Below, piece after piece: positions 904 through 9,193 of a stretch of 64,000 nt of DNA (position 1 is its first letter; each line of letters opens with the position of its first letter). The stretch spans positions 62,001 through 126,000 of the forward strand of contig SHZZ01000003.1 in assembly GCA_009692005.1 (NCBI GenBank), given 5' to 3'. The notes under the pieces were generated by a model. It had not been told where the DNA came from and searched no databases. It saw nothing but the letters and a program-made list of their open reading frames with translations. Both the position numbers and the translations under genes were made by a program. The DNA comes from Gemmataceae bacterium. GTDB taxonomy: Bacteria > Planctomycetota > Planctomycetia > Gemmatales > Gemmataceae.

Positions 904-3900
904 CTAGGGCATGCCGGTAAACTGGCCAAGAAACGCGAGCAGGTGGGCCATTTCTCCAGGTGACAACTGTGTTTCTAGCCCGTCCGGCATGAGAGACTTA
1001 CTTGTGTTTTGAATCAGCTCCACCTGGTTGCGCAAGATGGTGTCTTCGGCGTTGTCGCCCCTGCGCAAGGTAATGGCTGTGCCTGTTTCCGCCGAGATGA
1101 TTCCGGAAAAAGTCCTGCCCTGGCGAGTTTCCAACAGATAATTGACATAGCGAGGATCGACTTCCCGGCTAGGGTCGAGGAGGGAAGTAAGAAGATAATC
1201 TCTTCCTTTGCCTCGGATAGCGGCCAAAAGATCGGGGCCCACCTGAAAGCCGATGCCATCCAGCCGGTGGCAAGTGGCGCAATTTTTCTGGAACAGCGCC
1301 CTGCCCTTGGCCACATCACCTTTTTCTTCTTTCCCCTTCAAATAGGCATCGACGATTTGTTTTCTCGGACTGGCAATGCCCGAACTCAGCAACCTGGCCA
1401 CCTTCTCTTTCAGCACCGGATCTTTCAACAATTTCAATTGCTCCAGTCGGGGTGGGTCCACTTGGGAAGGGGGCAATGTTCCTTTTTCCATGGCCAACAC
1501 CAGAGCGCCAATTCGCTCCGTTCGGGCGAAAAGAACCTCCAATGCTTCCCGGCGCAGGGTGGGGCTGAGACCAGCCCAGGCAGTCAAAACAATATCGCCA
1601 ACTTCCCTTTTGTTAAAAAGCGTTAGGGCCTGCAAGGCGGCGGTTTGCACAGCAGGAGGAGCTTTGGCGCTCAAAAGGTCCGGCGCGGCATTTGCAATGA
1701 GGGGGAATGGACCCCAGGCAAGGAAACGCACCGCCTCGACTCGCCTGGGAACGGTTTGCTTTTCCGATTTGGCCAGCTCCAAGGTGCGCTTGAACTGGGG
1801 GACAAACTTTTCCAGCACTTGCCTGGCGGGGCTGCTCAATCCCTTTTCCCAAAGTGAATGAAAATCCCGACCGCTGGAGGAATAACCCTGGGCAATCCCC
1901 TGCAGCACCAGCGATTGGCTGGCCAGACTTCCTTCCAGACCGACTACCCTGGCCAAGGTTTGGGCCAACTCCGCTTCCGTCAGAGTGGCGCCAGCGCTGG
2001 CGCCCAGGCGGCTGAGAAAAACCTCGGCGCCCGGTACTCCAGCCGTTTTGAAATCCGCATCGGTCAACAACGCGTGCAATAAATCGACACCTGTCCCGGC
2101 GCTGGAACTCAGGATAGCGGTTTGCATCCACCTGTCGGCGCCATCGCGGAGAGCAATCTTTTTCAAGTAGGGTGTGGCCTGCGTGGGTTTCATACTGCCA
2201 AGCGACAGGGCGGTTTGAAACCGCACCTGCAAGGAATCATCATCGGCCAGTTGGCCAACTCGCAGAGCAACCTTTTCAGAGGTTGCCAGATGTTTCTCGG
2301 ACAGGCGGATCCCCTGGCAGCGGACTGCCAAGGAGGGATCTGCAAGGGCTTGAATAATCAAGGCCTCGTCCATGGCGCCGAGCCCAGCCAGAGTGCAATA
2401 GGAATGAATCCGCGCATATTCCCGCGAGGAACCCCTGGCTATTTGCTTGAGAACATCCAGCGCATCCTGGCGGTTTTGTTCCACGAGCAACTGCTGGGCC
2501 AGGATCCGCCGGGCAGGATTGGGTGATTCCAACTCCTGAGCCAGCGATTTTCCCTCGCCCGCTAGATGGGGAAACGGCTTGGCTTTCGGATTTTTATCGG
2601 GGGTAATGCGCCAAATTCGCCCCTTCCCTTGCGTGTGCAGGGGGAGAACCTTTTTCATGTCATCGGGAAGTGACAAAGGCGTTTCAATGACTTCGCGATA
2701 AAAATCGAGCAGGAGAATGGAGCCATCCAGGCAGAAATTCAAATGTACCGGGCGGAACCAGTTGTCCGTGGAGGCGAGAAATTCCCGGTTCGGATTCCCA
2801 CGCTTGGAGGAAAAAGTGACTCCCTTGGGTTCAATCACATCCCGCAGGAGAAGATTGTTGGCCGGCTCGCAAATGATAATGCTGTTCTGAAACTCGGGTG
2901 GAACAGCCTCGGTGTTCAATAACAACGGGCTGCAAGAGGAAGTGGAAAACCCGCCGGGCACGAGTTCGGTGGAGGCAAAGCGCTTGGCGTCGGCGCTGCC
3001 TTTTCTCCGGCTGGTTCGCTCCACCCGCCAGGCTTCAAACGGGCTTATACGAAAGACCTTGCACGCGGAGCCATGCTCGGGAATATCCAGAGCCACCGTG
3101 CTGGCGGGGAGAAACGGATTCCGCCTCAGGTACTCATCAGGGATAACGATGGCCCGGAGGTGATTGCTGTTGGTGGCGGTGAACCAATGCCCCTGAGTAT
3201 CCATGGTGAGACCATACTGCCCGCCGCCGGAGACAGGTTCCAAGCTCCCTGGCACATCGGGGCGGAAACGAATTCCCCTGCCCCTCAAGGGAACCGGGCC
3301 CCATTTGACATTGCCCGGGTCGGTGATGGAACCGCCATCGCTGCCGGCCACCGCGTGGACGGTGTTATCCAGCCCCCAGCGGAAGCTGTTCAGCATCTGC
3401 TGAATATTGTAAGTGTGGAAGCCGGTGTAAAGGACTTTGCGTTCATCGGCCACGCCATCGCCATTGGTGTCGCGCAAGAAAAGTAAATCGGGGGCATTGG
3501 CCACCAAAAGGCCGTCCTTCCAGGGAAACACGCCCGTGGGCAGGCGCAAATTGCTGGCAAACACACTGGAGGTTTCGTAAAAACCATCGGCATCTTTGTC
3601 TTCCAGTAGGCGAATTCTCCCGGAGTTGACTTCACCTGTACCCACCCCGCCATTGGGGTACCCGGACATCTCCGCGACGAACAATCGGCCGCGGTGATCT
3701 TCCGCGCAGGCGACCGGGTCGATCACCAGAGGTTCCTGGCAAGCAAGGGAGATTTTGAAACCGGGTTCAATCTGGAAGGTGCCAAGTTCATCCTTGGCAG
3801 ATAGCGGGCCGGGATTGGCCAGCCCTTTCGCTTGCTCTTGGCAGACCGCGCAAAGCCCAGCGAAACACCCTGCAAAGAGAAGAAAAGCCAGCGTGTTCAA

Positions 3901-3912
3901 CAACCGTTGCAT
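904..3912 (-). CDS. PVC-type haem-binding protein: membrane-bound dehydrogenase-like beta-propeller, HEAT region, C-terminal c-haem domain
   Basis: 1002 residues with a secretion signal (hydrophobic residues 5-24). Residues about 40-440 form a propeller-like domain with repeated D-x-D-G calcium-type loops (DKDADGFYE, DTNGDGVAD), as in the planctomycete TIGR02604 family. Residues about 450-840 look like HEAT/ARM helices. The C-terminus carries the PVC haem-binding domain (TIGR02603-like): CATCH at residues 878-882 and later LMPDGL, whose Met could be the distal ligand. Proteins of this build are abundant in planctomycetes and are thought to oxidise sugars or polysaccharide fragments in the periplasm; the substrate is unknown. 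Divergent from the C1 cluster, with only 57 bases between the two starts. Confidence 0.9.
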   Translation of the reverse strand: MQRLLNTLAFLLFAGCFAGLCAVCQEQAKGLANPGPLSAKDELGTFQIEPGFKISLACQEPLVIDPVACAEDHRGRLFVAEMSGYPNGGVGTGEVNSGRIRLLEDKDADGFYETSSVFASNLRLPTGVFPWKDGLLVANAPDLLFLRDTNGDGVADERKVLYTGFHTYNIQQMLNSFRWGLDNTVHAVAGSDGGSITDPGNVKWGPVPLRGRGIRFRPDVPGSLEPVSGGGQYGLTMDTQGHWFTATNSNHLRAIVIPDEYLRRNPFLPASTVALDIPEHGSACKVFRISPFEAWRVERTSRRKGSADAKRFASTELVPGGFSTSSCSPLLLNTEAVPPEFQNSIIICEPANNLLLRDVIEPKGVTFSSKRGNPNREFLASTDNWFRPVHLNFCLDGSILLLDFYREVIETPLSLPDDMKKVLPLHTQGKGRIWRITPDKNPKAKPFPHLAGEGKSLAQELESPNPARRILAQQLLVEQNRQDALDVLKQIARGSSREYARIHSYCTLAGLGAMDEALIIQALADPSLAVRCQGIRLSEKHLATSEKVALRVGQLADDDSLQVRFQTALSLGSMKPTQATPYLKKIALRDGADRWMQTAILSSSAGTGVDLLHALLTDADFKTAGVPGAEVFLSRLGASAGATLTEAELAQTLARVVGLEGSLASQSLVLQGIAQGYSSSGRDFHSLWEKGLSSPARQVLEKFVPQFKRTLELAKSEKQTVPRRVEAVRFLAWGPFPLIANAAPDLLSAKAPPAVQTAALQALTLFNKREVGDIVLTAWAGLSPTLRREALEVLFARTERIGALVLAMEKGTLPPSQVDPPRLEQLKLLKDPVLKEKVARLLSSGIASPRKQIVDAYLKGKEEKGDVAKGRALFQKNCATCHRLDGIGFQVGPDLLAAIRGKGRDYLLTSLLDPSREVDPRYVNYLLETRQGRTFSGIISAETGTAITLRRGDNAEDTILRNQVELIQNTSKSLMPDGLETQLSPGEMAHLLAFLGQFTGMP

Positions 3913-3969: not shown

Positions 3970-5145
3970 ATGACCGAGAACAACCCATTAACTGAGGAAA
4001 CCTCAATTGTGGCGCTGGGCGCCAGCGCGCGGGCCTTGGCCTGGTCGGCGATGCGGGCAGGGTTTTCTCCCTGGACCCTCGATTTATTCCAGGACCTGGA
4101 CCTGGCCCGGTTTTCACCGGGTTTGAAATTTATCCAAGGCAGGCCTGGCAACATTCTGAAGCAGTTGAAACAGGCCCCGGCAGGGCCATTGGTTTACACA
4201 GGCGGCCTGGAAAACCAACCAAGGCTCTTAAAGAGAATTCAAAAATCCCGCCCGGTTTGGGGGATCACTGGCGATTGCCTGAAAAAATTGCGCGACCCCT
4301 ATGGAAATAAGCTCTCATTGGAACAGGCTGGGTTGTTGGCGCCGCAACGCCTGCACCTTTCCCAGAATCCGACTGACAGTTGTCAATGGCTGGTTAAACC
4401 CAAACGCCACGCTGGCGGGAATGAAATTACCCCCCGGCCACATTCCTTACATTCTACTTTACAGAGTAAAAATGAATTTTTCCTGGAAGAGTGGATAGAG
4501 GGAGAATCGCGAAGCGCAGTATTCCTGCTGGGGGCCAGCCGGGCGGAACTTCTCGGGGTTACCTGCCAAATGACTGGGTGGGGCTGCTTCCATGCTTCCA
4601 CCTTTCAGTATTCCGGATCGATCGGCCCGGTTGAACCCTTGGCCAATGAAAAAGCCGACCTGCTGTGGTTGGGGAAAATCCTGTCAGTAGAAATGGGCGG
4701 GCGTGGCCTGGTGGGGGTCGACTATGTCCTGCGCCAGGGGCGCGCCGTCGTTATCGAAATCAACCCGCGCTATTCCGCTTCGGTCGAAATCCTGGAGTGG
4801 AGTAGCGGCAAGCCCTATTTCCTGCTCCATGCGCGGGAGTTTTCCCAGGTCAACGCAATCCCCAGCGGTTTTTCAAAGGTTCAAGGGATTCTGGGCAAAG
4901 GGATTTACTTTGCACCGCAGGACTTGGTTTTTCCGGAAACAGGTCCGTGGGAATCGGGGAGTTCTCCCTTCGAGTTTCCTGCTTTCGCGGATATTCCCTG
5001 GCCGGGAGTATGCCATCAGGCGGGCGCGCCAGTGATCACGGCTTTTGCCCGGGGTCAATCGGTGGCAGAAGTCAGGAATATTCTCGAAAAAACCGCCCAG
5101 GAACTGGACAATTGTTTTTTTCCCAATGGAACAGTCCTCAGATGA
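3970..5145 (+). CDS. ATP-grasp protein of the H4MPT-linked C1 cluster (OrfY-like)
   Basis: 391 residues from the ATG at 3970; an upstream extension exists in frame but overlaps the divergent haem gene and is not family-like. The fold is ATP-grasp: a pre-ATP-grasp N-terminus (VALGASARALAWSAMRAG), WLVKPKRHAGG as the ATP-binding strand and loop near residue 140, FLEEWIEGESRSAVFL as the hinge, and GVDYVLRQGRAVVIEINPRYSAS as the Mg2+-binding block (E and N of EINPR). Bacterial H4MPT clusters contain such a protein (OrfY in Methylobacterium, carboligase-related), required for C1 metabolism but of unproven reaction; an amide or glutamyl ligase step in H4MPT or methylofuran side-chain assembly is a reasonable inference. 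First gene of a plus-strand run into mch. Shine-Dalgarno is weak. Confidence 0.85.
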   Translation: MTENNPLTEETSIVALGASARALAWSAMRAGFSPWTLDLFQDLDLARFSPGLKFIQGRPGNILKQLKQAPAGPLVYTGGLENQPRLLKRIQKSRPVWGITGDCLKKLRDPYGNKLSLEQAGLLAPQRLHLSQNPTDSCQWLVKPKRHAGGNEITPRPHSLHSTLQSKNEFFLEEWIEGESRSAVFLLGASRAELLGVTCQMTGWGCFHASTFQYSGSIGPVEPLANEKADLLWLGKILSVEMGGRGLVGVDYVLRQGRAVVIEINPRYSASVEILEWSSGKPYFLLHAREFSQVNAIPSGFSKVQGILGKGIYFAPQDLVFPETGPWESGSSPFEFPAFADIPWPGVCHQAGAPVITAFARGQSVAEVRNILEKTAQELDNCFFPNGTVLR

Positions 5146-5176
5146 GAACGACAACCCAAGGCGTGCTGTAAACACC

Positions 5177-6133
5177 ATGAGTGCAACGATGGGATTGAAT
5201 GAGAAAGCCCGGCGGATTTGCGATCAGTCCGCTGAGCAGGCCAAGGAACTGAGGATCGAGGTGATTCAATCACCTGAAGGGGCCCGCTTGCTGGACTTTG
5301 GCGTCAAGGCGCAAGGGTCCATTGAGGCAGGACTGGAGTTGGCAAAAATCTGCATGGGCGGAATGGGCGTGGCGGAGTTGGTTCCCAGCCATTTGCAGGG
5401 TTGGGACGGCCCGGCAATCCAGGTTCGCACGAATCACCCAGTGGCAGCCTGCCTGGCATCGCAATACGCGGGATGGAAAATCCAGGGGACTAAATTTTTC
5501 GCCATGGGCTCGGGCCCCATGCGCGCCTGCTACGCCAAGGAGGAAATATTCAACACAGTCGGGGGAAAAGAAACCCCGGGCTTTGCCGTGGGGGTGCTGG
5601 AGACGGGAACACTTCCCGGTGCCGAGGTCATCGCCCAACTGGGTGAAAAGCTGCAACTGGCGCCAGAGAAAATCACACTTTGCCTGGCGGCCACGAGTTC
5701 GGTGGCCGGTGCCGTTCAAATCGCGGCGCGCAGCGTGGAAACGGCCCTGCACAAATTACATGAACTCGGTTTTCCCGTTCACACCATTCAGGAAGGGACG
5801 GGCTGGGCGCCCTTGCCCCCGCCGACGCCGGATTTTATCCAGGCCATTGGCCGGACCAACGACGCCATTCTCTTTGGCGGCCTGGTTCACCTGTGGGTCA
5901 ACTGCGAGGATGATCTCATTGGGCAAATAGGGTCGAAGGCGCCGTCGAACCAATCGGGGGATTACGGGGCTCCCTTTGGCGAGGTTTTTTCCCGCGCCGG
6001 GGGCGACTTTTACAAAATCGATCCTCTGCTGTTCTCTCCCGCCCGGGTCGTCTTCAACAATTTGAAGACAGGCAAGGTTTTTGCCTTTGGGGAATTGAAC
6101 CCGCAATTGCTGCGAAAATCCTGGCCTTGGTAA
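5177..6133 (+). CDS. mch: Methenyltetrahydromethanopterin cyclohydrolase
   Basis: 318 residues from the ATG at 5177, close to the usual length for bacterial Mch. It interconverts methenyl-H4MPT and N5-formyl-H4MPT in the cytoplasm, the middle step of the H4MPT formaldehyde-oxidation route. Recognisable stretches are LDFGVKAQGSIEAGLELAKICMGG near residue 30, the central AMGSGPMRACYAKEEIF, and GRTNDAILFGG in the second half, all typical of the family. The reading frame is open further upstream and overlaps the end of the ATP-grasp gene; ATGs at 5126 and 5189 are alternatives. 5177 was chosen for family length, but no good Shine-Dalgarno is close (AAGG lies about 15 bases away), so translation may be coupled to the upstream gene, 31 bases before. 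Confidence 0.95.
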   Translation: MSATMGLNEKARRICDQSAEQAKELRIEVIQSPEGARLLDFGVKAQGSIEAGLELAKICMGGMGVAELVPSHLQGWDGPAIQVRTNHPVAACLASQYAGWKIQGTKFFAMGSGPMRACYAKEEIFNTVGGKETPGFAVGVLETGTLPGAEVIAQLGEKLQLAPEKITLCLAATSSVAGAVQIAARSVETALHKLHELGFPVHTIQEGTGWAPLPPPTPDFIQAIGRTNDAILFGGLVHLWVNCEDDLIGQIGSKAPSNQSGDYGAPFGEVFSRAGGDFYKIDPLLFSPARVVFNNLKTGKVFAFGELNPQLLRKSWPW

Positions 6134-6157
6134 CTCTTTTCACTCTGGGTTCAATCC

Positions 6158-7021
6158 ATGCATTTGTCTATTTTGGGAGACCGTGAAGGCTGGCATGCCC
6201 GCGACCTGGAAAGGGCGGCGCGTTCCCGTGGGCACGAGGCTTTGCATCTCGATTTCCAATTACTCGGCCACGGGCTGGCCTGTGACTGGGAAAAACCCCA
6301 AACCGATGGGCTAATCGTCCGCACCATGCCAGCCGGGTCGCTCGAGCAGGTTGTGTTTCGCATGGATTTGCTGGCCGCGTGGGAACGCCTGGGGATCCGG
6401 GTGGTCAACCGGCCCAAGGCGCTGGAAGCGGCCATCGACAAATTTCTGTCGCTGGAATTGCTGCACCGAGAAGGGTTGCCAGTCCCCCCGACCATTGGAT
6501 GCCAGGATTTGACTTCGGCCATGCTGGCCTTTGATCGCCTGGGCCGGGATGTGGTGGTGAAGCCCCTATTCGGCTCAGAAGGTCGTGGCATGGTGCGCAT
6601 CCAGGATGAGCAAATCGCCTGGCGGGTGTGCCATTCCATTTCCCGTACCGGCAGTGTAATTTACCTGCAAAAGTTTGTGGAAAATCCGGGCTGGGATCTG
6701 CGACTGTTTGTGCTGGGCCACCGGGTGTTGGGTGGAATGAAACGCCTGGCAGTCAACGGCGACTGGCGGACCAATGTCGCCCAGGGGGGAAAAGCAGAGT
6801 TCTATCCGCCCCAGAGGGAAGAATGCGGACTTGCCGTTCGCGCCGCCCGGGCAGTGGGCGCCGAATTGGCCGGCATCGACCTTCTGCGTGCGCAATCGGG
6901 CGACTGGTATGTTTTGGAAGTGAACGCGGTCCCGGGCTGGCGGGCCTTTTCCAAAGTCACAGAAATCGATGTCGCTTTAGAAATCGTGAAGTACCTGGAA
7001 ACCGGCAGGAAGGAAAATTGA
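6158..7021 (+). CDS. RimK-like ATP-grasp ligase of the H4MPT cluster (Orf17-like)
   Basis: 287 residues. The N-terminal pre-ATP-grasp domain is followed by DVVVKPLFGSEGRGMVRI near residue 130 (ATP lysine and glycine-rich loop), YLQKFVENPGWDLRLFVLG (hinge and RimK-type D-x-R), and AGIDLLRA...WYVLEVNAVPGW near residue 245, which supplies the E and N metal ligands. RimK/MptN/CofF-type enzymes add glutamate to an acid acceptor, so glutamyl addition to a pterin or furan cofactor is plausible; the corresponding Methylobacterium protein (Orf17) is needed for the C1 pathway. It follows mch by 24 bases and its stop overlaps the possible TTG at 7018 of the next gene. Confidence 0.85.
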   Translation: MHLSILGDREGWHARDLERAARSRGHEALHLDFQLLGHGLACDWEKPQTDGLIVRTMPAGSLEQVVFRMDLLAAWERLGIRVVNRPKALEAAIDKFLSLELLHREGLPVPPTIGCQDLTSAMLAFDRLGRDVVVKPLFGSEGRGMVRIQDEQIAWRVCHSISRTGSVIYLQKFVENPGWDLRLFVLGHRVLGGMKRLAVNGDWRTNVAQGGKAEFYPPQREECGLAVRAARAVGAELAGIDLLRAQSGDWYVLEVNAVPGWRAFSKVTEIDVALEIVKYLETGRKEN

Positions 7022-7026
7022 CTTTG
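7010..7026 (+). promoter_or_regulatory. Shine-Dalgarno and TTG start of the Orf5-like gene
   Basis: AAGGA at 7010-7014 lies 9 bases before TTG at 7024 and only 3 before the alternative in-frame TTG at 7018. The first ATG in this frame (7060) would remove residues just before the conserved CitG-type ACMWEACARKAGN motif, so a TTG start is preferred. Confidence 0.55.
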
Positions 7027-7920
7027 GACCAACTGGGGTTATTCGCGCAAACCGCCTGCATGTGGGAAGCCTGCGCCCGCAAAGCGGGGAATGTCCATCC
7101 TCTGGCAAGTTTTGAAAGCCTTCACTTTACTCAGTTCCTGACCAGCGCGGCGGCGATTGCACCGGTCATGCAAAAAGCCCCTTCCCGCCCAGTGGGGGAA
7201 ACCATTCTCGCAGCAGTTCAGGCTACCCGTGATCTGGTGGGGGCAAATACCAACCTGGGAATCATTTTGCTGCTGACGCCCTTGGCGGCGGTAGAAAACG
7301 GTTTAAGTCTCAGCAGTGAAATCACCCAGGTGTTGCAAAATCTTACCAGCGCCGACGCTGCCAACGCGTATCAAGCCATCCGCCTGGCAAACCCGGGCGG
7401 CCTGGGCACAGTTCCCCAAGGGGATGTGCGAGGCCAGCCCCCGGGATCCTTGCTAGAAGCGATGCGCCTGGCCGCCGATCGCGACCTGATTGCCAGGCAA
7501 TACGCCTTTGAGTTTCGGGATATTTTTCAGGATGCCCTGCCCACTCTCGGCGGGAGTTTAGAACTTACAGGTTCTTTGGAAGGATCAATTATCTTTACTC
7601 ATCTGCATTTGATGAGCCGTTATCCGGATTCACTGATTGAAAGAAAGCGGGGGAAAACCGAAGCAGAGGAAAGCGCCGAGCGGGCCAAGGAGGTTCTGGC
7701 GCGCCAGTGGCCCTTGAAGGAAGCGGGGTGGGACGAATTCCGGGCCCTGGACCGCTGGTTGCGCGAAGTGGGAAACCAAAGAAACCCCGGCGCCACCGCC
7801 GACTTGGTTTGCGCCACACTCTTTGCCGCCCTGCGCTTGGGGCAACTTTCACTCCCTTTGCGTTTTCCCTGGACCCACGGCATGGAGCGGGCCCTACGCC
7901 GAGCCGCCCCAACGGTTTGA
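7024..7920 (+). CDS. CitG/MptG-like triphosphoribosyl-dephospho-CoA synthase family protein (Orf5-like) of the H4MPT cluster
   Basis: 298 residues from TTG at 7024. The family signature is at the N-terminus: CMWEACARKAGNVHP, then GANTNLGIILLLTPLA near residue 75 (CitG proteins have a similar N-T-H/N-x-G motif) and LANPGGLGTV. CitG condenses ATP with dephospho-CoA; this diverged branch accompanies H4MPT genes (Orf5 in Methylobacterium), and an ATP- or phosphoribosyl-dependent step in cofactor synthesis is the usual inference, still unproven. The start overlaps the end of the RimK-like gene. The C-terminal stretch near residue 275 (ATADLVCATLFAALRLG) contains the family's late conserved Asp region. 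It ends 61 bases before the pterin synthase homologue. Confidence 0.85.
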   Translation: MDQLGLFAQTACMWEACARKAGNVHPLASFESLHFTQFLTSAAAIAPVMQKAPSRPVGETILAAVQATRDLVGANTNLGIILLLTPLAAVENGLSLSSEITQVLQNLTSADAANAYQAIRLANPGGLGTVPQGDVRGQPPGSLLEAMRLAADRDLIARQYAFEFRDIFQDALPTLGGSLELTGSLEGSIIFTHLHLMSRYPDSLIERKRGKTEAEESAERAKEVLARQWPLKEAGWDEFRALDRWLREVGNQRNPGATADLVCATLFAALRLGQLSLPLRFPWTHGMERALRRAAPTV

Positions 7921-7981
7921 ACCAAGTTTCCTTTAGTTTGCTAAAATCACTTTAGAACCTATTTCTTTCCCATGGGGCGCC

Positions 7982-8476
7982 ATGTCCACTGAACGCTATC
8001 AGGTGCGGGTCACCAAAGATCATTTGATTTTCAGCTCAGGCCACTTCATCACCTATGAAGGGAATCAGTGTGAAAGGTTGCACGGGCACAATTACCGCAC
8101 TGCGGTGGAGGTCGAAGGCCCGCTCGATCCGAACCATTATGTTTTTGATTTTATTGCCCTCAAGCGCCGGACCCAGGAAATCACGGCGGATTTGGACCAT
8201 CGGATGATGCTGCCCCGAAACAACTCGGTCATTTCGGTTCAGGAAAAAGGGAACCGTGTGGAAGTCCGCTACAAGGAAAAGGAGTGGATATTTCCTTTGG
8301 AAGACTGCGTTATTCTGCCAATTGAAAACACCACGGCGGAGCAACTCGCCCGCTACATAGCCGGCCGGTTGGCGGATGCCCTGTGGAGCCAACATCAATA
8401 CCGCCCGGAATATTTGCGCGTGGAGGTGGAGGAATGCCTCGGGCAGTCGGCGCAGTGCGAGATGCGTTTACCCTAA
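7982..8476 (+). CDS. 6-pyruvoyl-tetrahydropterin synthase family protein
   Basis: 164 residues. Zinc ligands are the classical three histidines: H21 in SSGHF and H34, H36 in LHGHNY; the family's catalytic cysteine is at C30 (CERLHGH). DLDHRMML near residue 79 and VEECLGQSA near the C-terminus match the family's D-H and E positions. PTPS/QueD enzymes act on dihydroneopterin triphosphate. Because the gene directly follows mch and the Orf17/Orf5-like genes, a role in the pterin half of H4MPT synthesis is more likely than queuosine, though QueD activity cannot be excluded by eye. The insert between residues 80 and 120 (RVEVRYKEKEWIFP) is longer than in standard QueD. Its 3' end overlaps the convergent HisA-like gene by 9 bases. 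Confidence 0.9.
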   Translation: MSTERYQVRVTKDHLIFSSGHFITYEGNQCERLHGHNYRTAVEVEGPLDPNHYVFDFIALKRRTQEITADLDHRMMLPRNNSVISVQEKGNRVEVRYKEKEWIFPLEDCVILPIENTTAEQLARYIAGRLADALWSQHQYRPEYLRVEVEECLGQSAQCEMRLP

Positions 8477-9193
8477 AGCGGAAAAATCACTTGGGTGGAT
8501 GCTAAGGTCATGCAACGCAGAGGCCATTACCACGCCATCCACGCCGGCAGCCTGAGCCAGTGATAAGTCCTGGGCGCTCTTTACCCCGCCGCCCGCGAAA
8601 ACTTGAATCCCGGGAAATTGCCCTTTCAAACGGGAGCACAATTCCAACGAGCCCAACCCCGCGCCCATGCCCACACGAGCGACATCCAGAACAAGAAATT
8701 GCCTTACACCCATGCTCGCCGCCTTCTCCACGATTTCCCATGGGGTTTCGCAATCCCAACCGGCATGCCGGACCATCGGCTGGCCATTGCGCAAATCGAG
8801 GGAAAAGGTCAGGCGGTGGGAAAATTCGGCCAAGGCAGGCGCTAAACCCCGCGGATCGCTCCAGGTTTCGTACCCCGCGATGAGTTGACAGGGTTTCACC
8901 GGTTCCAAGAAACGAAGCGATTCCAGATCCTTGGCTCCTGCATCTAGCCACAACTTACATCCTAATTCTTTTATTTCGTGAAAAATATCGATGCAGGGAT
9001 CGCACCCGGCCAGGGCGTCCAAGTCTGCAACATAAAGATCGTCAATTCCCAGGCTTTGGAAAGCCTGGGCCACGATTATGGGATGGGCGCTGGATGCCAG
9101 GCGGGAAACGACCGGCCGATAATTTTCCCTTCTGCCGCCCACGCCTCGAACCACCTGCCCTTGCAGCAGGTCCATGGCCGCGATCAATTTCAT
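8468..9193 (-). CDS. HisA-like TIM-barrel protein linked to the H4MPT cluster
   Basis: 241 residues from the ATG at 9193. A longer reading frame runs upstream to 9613, but that part is antisense-like sequence within the pseudouridine synthase. The N-terminus IAAMDLLQGQVVRGVGGRRENYRP has the HisA catalytic Asp on strand 1 and the extended R-G-x-R-x-x-Y-R-P motif of the HisA-related group (COG1411 by recall) that travels with H4MPT genes. The second acidic site lies in FLVLDVARVG near residue 165, and the C-terminal phosphate-binding glycines are VFAGGGVKSAQD. True HisA is a histidine enzyme, but no his genes are nearby, so a cofactor-biosynthesis role is inferred. The start codon overlaps the preceding stop (ATGA at 9190-9193). 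Confidence 0.85.
   Translation of the reverse strand: MKLIAAMDLLQGQVVRGVGGRRENYRPVVSRLASSAHPIIVAQAFQSLGIDDLYVADLDALAGCDPCIDIFHEIKELGCKLWLDAGAKDLESLRFLEPVKPCQLIAGYETWSDPRGLAPALAEFSHRLTFSLDLRNGQPMVRHAGWDCETPWEIVEKAASMGVRQFLVLDVARVGMGAGLGSLELCSRLKGQFPGIQVFAGGGVKSAQDLSLAQAAGVDGVVMASALHDLSIHPSDFSALG

Follow-up and report, generated by a model that had tools for sequence, protein, structure and literature searches.

Gene content of the locus

The window analysed here is a stretch of 64,000 nucleotides from the planctomycete Gemmataceae bacterium (assembly GCA_009692005.1, contig SHZZ01000003.1, positions 62,001 to 126,000). Six genes linked to the coenzymes of one-carbon (C1) metabolism occupy positions 3970-9193 of the window, as a preliminary description of this DNA had proposed. 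An open reading frame (ORF) check and searches with Pfam and NCBIfam models found all six ORFs intact, each with a family match (Table 1). The best overall explanation is probably that of a C1-coenzyme island, in which MyfA, MyfB and Orf17 serve the synthesis of methylofuran, while the PTPS-family protein and Orf7 serve that of the pterin and the arm of tetrahydromethanopterin (H4MPT).

The five genes on the + strand are separated by 31, 24, -4 and 61 bases, the negative value being an overlap of the TTG start of orf7 with the end of the MyfB gene. orf17 is convergent with the PTPS gene, and their 3' ends overlap by 9 bases.

Table 1. Genes of the island, with their positions in the window and the family matches on which the predictions are based
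Gene or product	Position	Strand	Family match and remarks
MyfA/OrfY-type ATP-grasp ligase, predicted glutamate ligase of the methylofuran side chain	3970..5145	+	PF02655 (ATP-grasp_3), 65 bits
mch, methenyl-H4MPT cyclohydrolase	5177..6133	+	TIGR03120, 387.7 bits (cut-off 228.8); PF02289, E 1e-115
MyfB/Orf5-type RimK/MptN-like ATP-grasp protein, predicted poly-glutamate ligase of methylofuran	6158..7021	+	PF08443, 114.7 bits
Orf7, CitG superfamily, proposed ribosyl transferase of the methanopterin arm	7018..7920	+	PF01874, 220 bits; TTG start
PTPS-family protein with CERLHGH, predicted 6-hydroxymethyl-dihydropterin synthase (FolB replacement)	7982..8476	+	PF01242, 80 bits
Orf17, HisA/HisF-like TIM-barrel protein	8468..9193	-	PF00977, 109 bits

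Gene order and nomenclature

All six genes recur in the same order and on the same strands on six named planctomycete contigs. Since the arrangement repeats in planctomycetes and in Alphaproteobacteria, its conservation is not due to chance. The Phyllobacterium plasmid pT1293c carries, in this order, RFAP synthase, mtdB, an ATP-grasp gene, mch, a RimK gene, a CitG-family gene, fae, a HisA-like gene on the opposite strand and an MfnF-like gene. Azospirillum brasilense p2 exhibits the same type of order with an additional ATP-grasp gene between the HisA-like and MfnF-like genes, and the Methylosinus island reads mch-orf5-orf7-fae-fae-orf17 (PMC3615186). The proteins of the window are 25.5% (OrfY), 42% (Mch), 34% (Orf5), 42% (Orf7) and 29% (Orf17) identical to their Phyllobacterium counterparts. 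As the Phyllobacterium and Azospirillum orders and the protein matches agree, the order in the window is the common bacterial one with PTPS in place of fae. The H4MPT/methylofuran island of bacteria such as Methylorubrum, Methylosinus and Azospirillum shares the order orfY-mch-orf5-orf7-X-orf17, in which orf17 is read from the other strand; position X is occupied by fae in the Azospirillum and Phyllobacterium islands and by PTPS in the planctomycete studied here. With mch accompanied by orfY, orf5, orf7 and orf17, the locus belongs to this type of island. In contrast to the proteobacterial island, the planctomycete has fae and mtdB together on another contig, and fhcA, fhcB and MfnB elsewhere.

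The locus is therefore the planctomycete version of a known bacterial C1-coenzyme island, and its arrangement is ordinary. The preliminary description had regarded the compact arrangement with two ligases as special, but this is the usual bacterial order and is not specific to the genome of the window. Three of its gene labels also have to be changed. In the nomenclature used for methylotrophs, the name Orf5 denotes the RimK/MptN-like ligase, and Orf17 stands for the PF00977 protein (PMC8141765). Together with the published gene order (PMC3615186), this makes the RimK-like ligase, previously labelled Orf17, the Orf5 (MyfB) protein, and identifies the HisA-like gene, whose identity had been missed, as orf17; by the gene order, the CitG-like gene, previously labelled Orf5, is orf7.

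Co-occurrence with other C1 genes

The distribution of mch, CitG-family/Orf7, OrfY and Orf17 proteins was profiled genome-wide in 149 planctomycete genomes; MyfB was left out of these profiles. mch is present in 14 of these genomes, which represent 10 genera and 7 families. CitG-family proteins above the cut-off are found in exactly the same 14 genomes, and so are the orthologues of OrfY (E <1e-45, the next match being at 4e-10) and of Orf17, for which the E-values jump from 1e-46 to 1e-20, the level at which ordinary proteins of the HisA type set in. All 14 genomes also have fae, mtdB, fhcA, MfnB and RFAP synthase.

The genome of the window itself contains, outside the island, two fae genes, an mtdB-type gene adjoining one of them, fhcA (760 bits) with fhcB alongside (516 bits), MfnB, and a weak homologue of RFAP synthase, which is below its cut-off (78.5 bits for a cut-off of 113.5). 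No fhcC or fhcD was seen among the tested ORFs near fhcA and fhcB, and no search was aimed at these two genes. The H4MPT/methylofuran C1 island of the preliminary description is thus borne out by gene families, conserved order and co-occurrence with mch. The co-occurrence analysis with fae, mtdB and fhc that it had suggested gives a match of OrfY, Orf7 and Orf17 to the 14 mch-positive genomes, all with fae, mtdB and fhcA. Neither of the two findings that it had named as speaking against such an island was made: fae, mtdB and fhc genes are present in the genome, and among planctomycetes OrfY, Orf7 and Orf17 are confined to genomes with mch.

Three side observations concern these C1 genes. In the genome of the window, fhcA and fhcB adjoin a histone-deacetylase-family gene (PF00850; L074:9253-13681), and the second, more distant fae homologue (L076:5705-6349) lies near an N-acetylglutamate synthase-type gene. 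An mch-negative planctomycete genome that is 84% complete (G051) exhibits two neighbouring Fae-domain matches in long frames of 488 and 496 aa (L029, G051:C193:14219-16107), that is, Fae where an H4MPT pathway was not detected.

Predicted methylofuran genes

Mch would interconvert methenyl- and formyl-dephospho-H4MPT (dH4MPT) in the oxidation of formaldehyde. For MyfA, MyfB and Orf17, roles have been shown by others in proteobacteria, with genetics and LC-MS. Deletion of orfY, orf5 or orf17 in methylotrophs abolishes methylofuran in each case; the orfY mutant builds up the forms with zero or one glutamate (Glu0/Glu1) and the orf5 mutant the form with two (Glu2) (PMC8141765). Overexpression of Orf5 leads to tails of up to 40 glutamates, and the purified protein makes polyglutamate (PMC8141765). 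The names MyfA (OrfY) and MyfB (Orf5) were chosen because these mutants and assays place both proteins in the synthesis of the methylofuran glutamate chain (PMC8141765). The statement of the preliminary description that only mch has a firmly known reaction does not agree with this work, in which MyfA and MyfB are assigned and Orf17 is essential for methylofuran. Its related statement that the steps are largely unassigned is out of date for OrfY and Orf5, and partly for Orf17, but stands for the reactions of Orf7 and Orf17.

The OrfY protein of the window is, over about 380 aa, 25.5-25.7% identical to the product of the ATP-grasp gene preceding mch in Phyllobacterium and Azoarcus, and its MyfB is 33.6-33.8% identical to the product of the gene following mch in the same two organisms. 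The former is classed as MyfA by its ATP-grasp_3 domain and its position before mch, the latter as MyfB by its RimK-type ATP-grasp fold and its position adjoining mch and Orf7. Both share family, island position and co-occurrence with fhc with the published MyfA and MyfB (PMC8141765), although they are only about 26% and 34% identical to the proteobacterial proteins. By this analogy, MyfA is predicted to add the second glutamate to methylofuran, acting on methylofuran-Glu1, and MyfB is predicted to lengthen the polyglutamate tail of this coenzyme, which carries the formyl group for Fhc.

Orf17 shares with HisA (ProFAR isomerase) the TIM-barrel family, a glycine-rich phosphate motif and the residues D8 and D133. 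These two residues, which we take to be the positions of the HisA catalytic acid/base pair, are kept in the 16 sequences of the alignment, one of which is the HisA of this genome. In contrast to HisA, Orf17 reaches only 77.8 bits with the HisA equivalog TIGR00007 (cut-off 228.95), is 25% identical to the HisA encoded by a separate gene of its own genome (L247), and is found only together with mch. The assignment of Orf17 as the HisA of this genome was rejected on the separate gene and the low score, and Orf17 is a PF00977 island protein distinct from HisA and confined to mch-positive genomes. In genomes G061 and G064, orf17 and an MfnD-like ATP-grasp gene are divergent, and MfnF follows the latter; orf17 lies near MfnF in G133 and, by annotation, beside ATP-grasp and MfnF-like genes in Azospirillum, and it is located about 0.8-4 kb from MfnB in G117, G148 and G064. 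These neighbourhoods agree with the published inference of an early role in methylofuran synthesis, and Orf17 may thus act early in the assembly of the methylofuran core. Given its HisA-type fold, the natural guess for its reaction would be an isomerisation of the aldose-ketose type on a phosphorylated precursor.

PTPS and Orf7

The solved structures nearest to the island PTPS are 3lze, 1y13, 2a0s and 3m0n (E about 1e-32 to 1e-34), which we take to be Plasmodium PTPS, and the next ones, which are QueD-like, follow at 8e-14 or weaker. The motif CER[LV]HGH is present in 10 of 10 aligned orthologues, in the form CERLHGH in the protein of the window. It combines the ExxHGH of PTPS-III with the CxxxHGH of QueD; ExxHGH has been described as the PTPS-III motif and CExxHGH as that of a I/III hybrid (PMC5041015). 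ExxHGH also occurs in all four PTPS cousins from mch-negative planctomycetes, whereas the Cys occurs in none of them. A family search found no FolB candidate in the genome of the window, which is rated 100% complete. The six mch-positive genomes that are FolB-negative all carry PTPS, and the only mch-positive genomes devoid of the island-type PTPS, G061 and G130, both have FolB. Among mch-negative genomes, FolB is missing in 28 of the 30 with a PTPS cousin, versus 64 of the 105 others (Fisher p = 0.0006). folB itself is found inside the H4MPT clusters of Azoarcus (confirmed with PF02152) and Paraburkholderia. A "dihydroneopterin aldolase" of Phyllobacterium was rejected as further support of this kind; this gene, which adjoins MfnB (L259:13955-14590), encodes an MfnE-like protein of the amino-acid-kinase family, and its name is likely an annotation error.

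The island PTPS therefore belongs to PTPS-III by its ExxHGH motif and, given the absence of FolB from the genome of the window, as a putative stand-in for the missing enzyme. It has these two features and the Plasmodium-type nearest structures in common with the PTPS-III that replaces FolB in Plasmodium and bacteria (COG0720), but differs from it in the QueD-type Cys and in its link to the H4MPT island and Orf7. As FolB is missing, PTPS would supply the pterin-ring precursor 6-hydroxymethyl-7,8-dihydropterin; in the simplest reading, it is probably a FolB-replacing enzyme that makes this compound.

Orf7 shares with CitG and MdcB (triphosphoribosyl-dephospho-CoA synthase) the Pfam family and, in an alignment with E. 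coli CitG, a common core comprising E17, K22, G24, N77, G81, D204 and RNPGxxAD. However, the CitG motifs PGLVDR and NTHKG read PGNVHP and NTNLG in Orf7, the latter also in proteobacterial Orf7, and the scores with the CitG and MdcB equivalogs (26.2 and 24.3 bits) are a tenth of the cut-offs (272 and 282). A blastp comparison of Orf7 with E. coli CitG gave no match at 1e-3, and the island contains no citrate lyase or malonate decarboxylase genes. The low equivalog scores and the changed motifs led us to reject Orf7 as a true CitG. An AlphaFold2 model of Orf7 (pLDDT 89.8) has its best match in the Protein Data Bank with 3h9p of Archaeoglobus fulgidus (TM-score 0.80-0.82 depending on the target, 25-26% identity; profile match E 5e-30), a protein with a shorter N-terminus that is annotated just as putative CitG-like.

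In the 69 usable planctomycete loci, Orf7 adjoins both MyfB and PTPS in 23, only MyfB in 12, only PTPS in 17 and neither in 17; PTPS follows Orf7 in half (17/34) of the loci where Orf7 is not beside MyfB. The Orf7-PTPS pair is far from mch in 5 of the 13 other mch-positive genomes. In G133 (L068:8517-9938), a single uninterrupted ORF of 473 aa encodes both the Orf7 and the PTPS domain, although an internal ATG at the PTPS start makes separate starts possible. The best 80 matches in the Orf7 search of genome contigs are planctomycetes, and the archaeal comparison is based on four control genomes. All four of these archaea have CitG-family and RFAP synthase matches, while MfnB is matched in the two methanogens only. 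The PTPS pairing away from mch and MyfB, the joint ORF of G133 and this archaeal RFAP synthase pattern are the reasons for placing Orf7 in the pterin branch.

ATP is the source from which CitG makes an alpha-ribosyl bond, and a bond of this kind, alpha-ribosyl-ribitol, is also part of methanopterin. We know of no gene assigned to the ribosylation step of H4MPT synthesis. As the dH4MPT of Methylorubrum is devoid only of the phosphate and the hydroxyglutarate (PMC8141765), it still needs the alpha-ribosyl bond. By analogy with CitG, Orf7 would form this glycosidic bond in the arm of methanopterin and use ATP or PRPP (phosphoribosyl pyrophosphate) as the donor. The addition of the ribosyl unit by Orf7 is the least certain step of our explanation, and we consider the chances to be about even. 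We are slightly more hesitant about the broader proposal, which may just fall short of even chances, that the missing transferase for the alpha-ribose is Orf7, together with archaeal relatives such as 3h9p, as a case of a CitG-like enzyme taken over for a pterin, and that the planctomycete PTPS partner replaces dihydroneopterin aldolase as the supplier of this pterin.

Alternative explanations

Orf7 could instead act in the methylofuran branch like MyfB, with the furan phosphate or the polyglutamate tail as examples of possible substrates. orf7 begins inside the MyfB gene, MyfB lies beside Orf7 in 35 of the 69 loci, and MfnB is present in every mch-positive genome. On the other hand, Haloferax and Sulfolobus have CitG-family genes and RFAP-synthase homologues with MfnB unmatched, and the Orf7-PTPS pair is kept away from mch and MyfB, once as a shared ORF, which makes this alternative rather unlikely, though worth considering. 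An MptN-type activity of MyfB, which would glutamylate H4MPT into a sarcinapterin-like coenzyme, combined with an MfnD-type step for MyfA, appears improbable. MptN is the top NCBIfam model for the RimK-like protein (223.3 bits), and the MyfA-like protein exhibits a weak similarity to MfnD (22 bits), but neither score reaches its equivalog cut-off (350 and 400, respectively), and relatives carry separate MfnD-like genes. Moreover, Orf5, which makes methylofuran polyglutamate and has the same island position, is itself 33% identical to MptN (PMC8141765).

It is very unlikely that PTPS is a QueD or biopterin enzyme lying beside the island by chance. The Cys of CxxxHGH is conserved in the protein, and the QueD model TIGR03367 gives a score of 69.6 bits, yet this is under the cut-off of 89.25, and a separate QueD-type gene with CRHLHGH is present in the genome (L246). 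In addition, the Glu typical of PTPS-III is found in the island protein, its pairing with Orf7 recurs in different families, and the genome has no FolB candidate; the reading of PTPS as QueD was rejected. That Orf17 serves the synthesis of H4MPT or histidine rather than that of methylofuran is the most improbable of the alternatives. The HisA/HisF fold and the conserved catalytic-type Asp residues would fit it, and an earlier proposal had linked the Methanocaldococcus jannaschii homologue MJ0703 to the synthesis of H4MPT, according to a citation in PMC8141765. However, the Methylorubrum orf17 mutant still has methenyl-dH4MPT but no methylofuran, and is complemented (PMC8141765). The genome also has its separate HisA, and MfnD-like and MfnF genes adjoin Orf17 in G061, G064 and, by annotation, Azospirillum.

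Several points weigh against the explanation that we prefer, in which the island serves methylofuran synthesis through MyfA, MyfB and Orf17 and H4MPT synthesis through PTPS and Orf7. FolB and PTPS occur together in six mch-positive genomes, and MyfA resembles the proteobacterial proteins at only about 26% identity. The 14 mch-positive genomes are not phylogenetically independent; because they are related, their number overstates the independence of the observations, although none of the 14 is an exception. With Orf7 adjoining MyfB in about half of the loci, neighbourhood alone cannot separate the pterin from the furan branch. The archaeal comparison comprises four archaea only, and it is weakened by Haloferax volcanii, which has CitG-like and RFAP-synthase-like genes and yet is thought to use tetrahydrofolate (PMC8305020). 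No published role of Orf7 or CitG in methanopterin synthesis was found, but our coverage of the side-chain literature was partial and an earlier assignment may have been missed.

Neighbouring genes

On the - strand, orf17 directly follows a gene for an RluA-type pseudouridine synthase (PF00849) and an S41 peptidase gene. Upstream of the island, the - strand of the window carries at 904-3912 a large gene encoding a DUF7133 domain, HEAT repeats and a C-terminal cytochrome c domain.

Significance

The island was already known, and the novelty of this work is modest: it comprises the prediction for PTPS and a sharper question for Orf7. Our observations concern orthology by gene order, co-occurrence across genomes, motifs and the absence of FolB, from which we infer all activities in this organism, the reaction of Orf7 included. 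The open biochemistry is narrower than the preliminary description suggested, and consists of the reactions of Orf7 and Orf17. Planctomycete diversity separates genes that are held in a fixed order in proteobacteria, and this separation suggests which coenzyme each unassigned gene serves. The ribosylation step of H4MPT synthesis thereby becomes directly testable.

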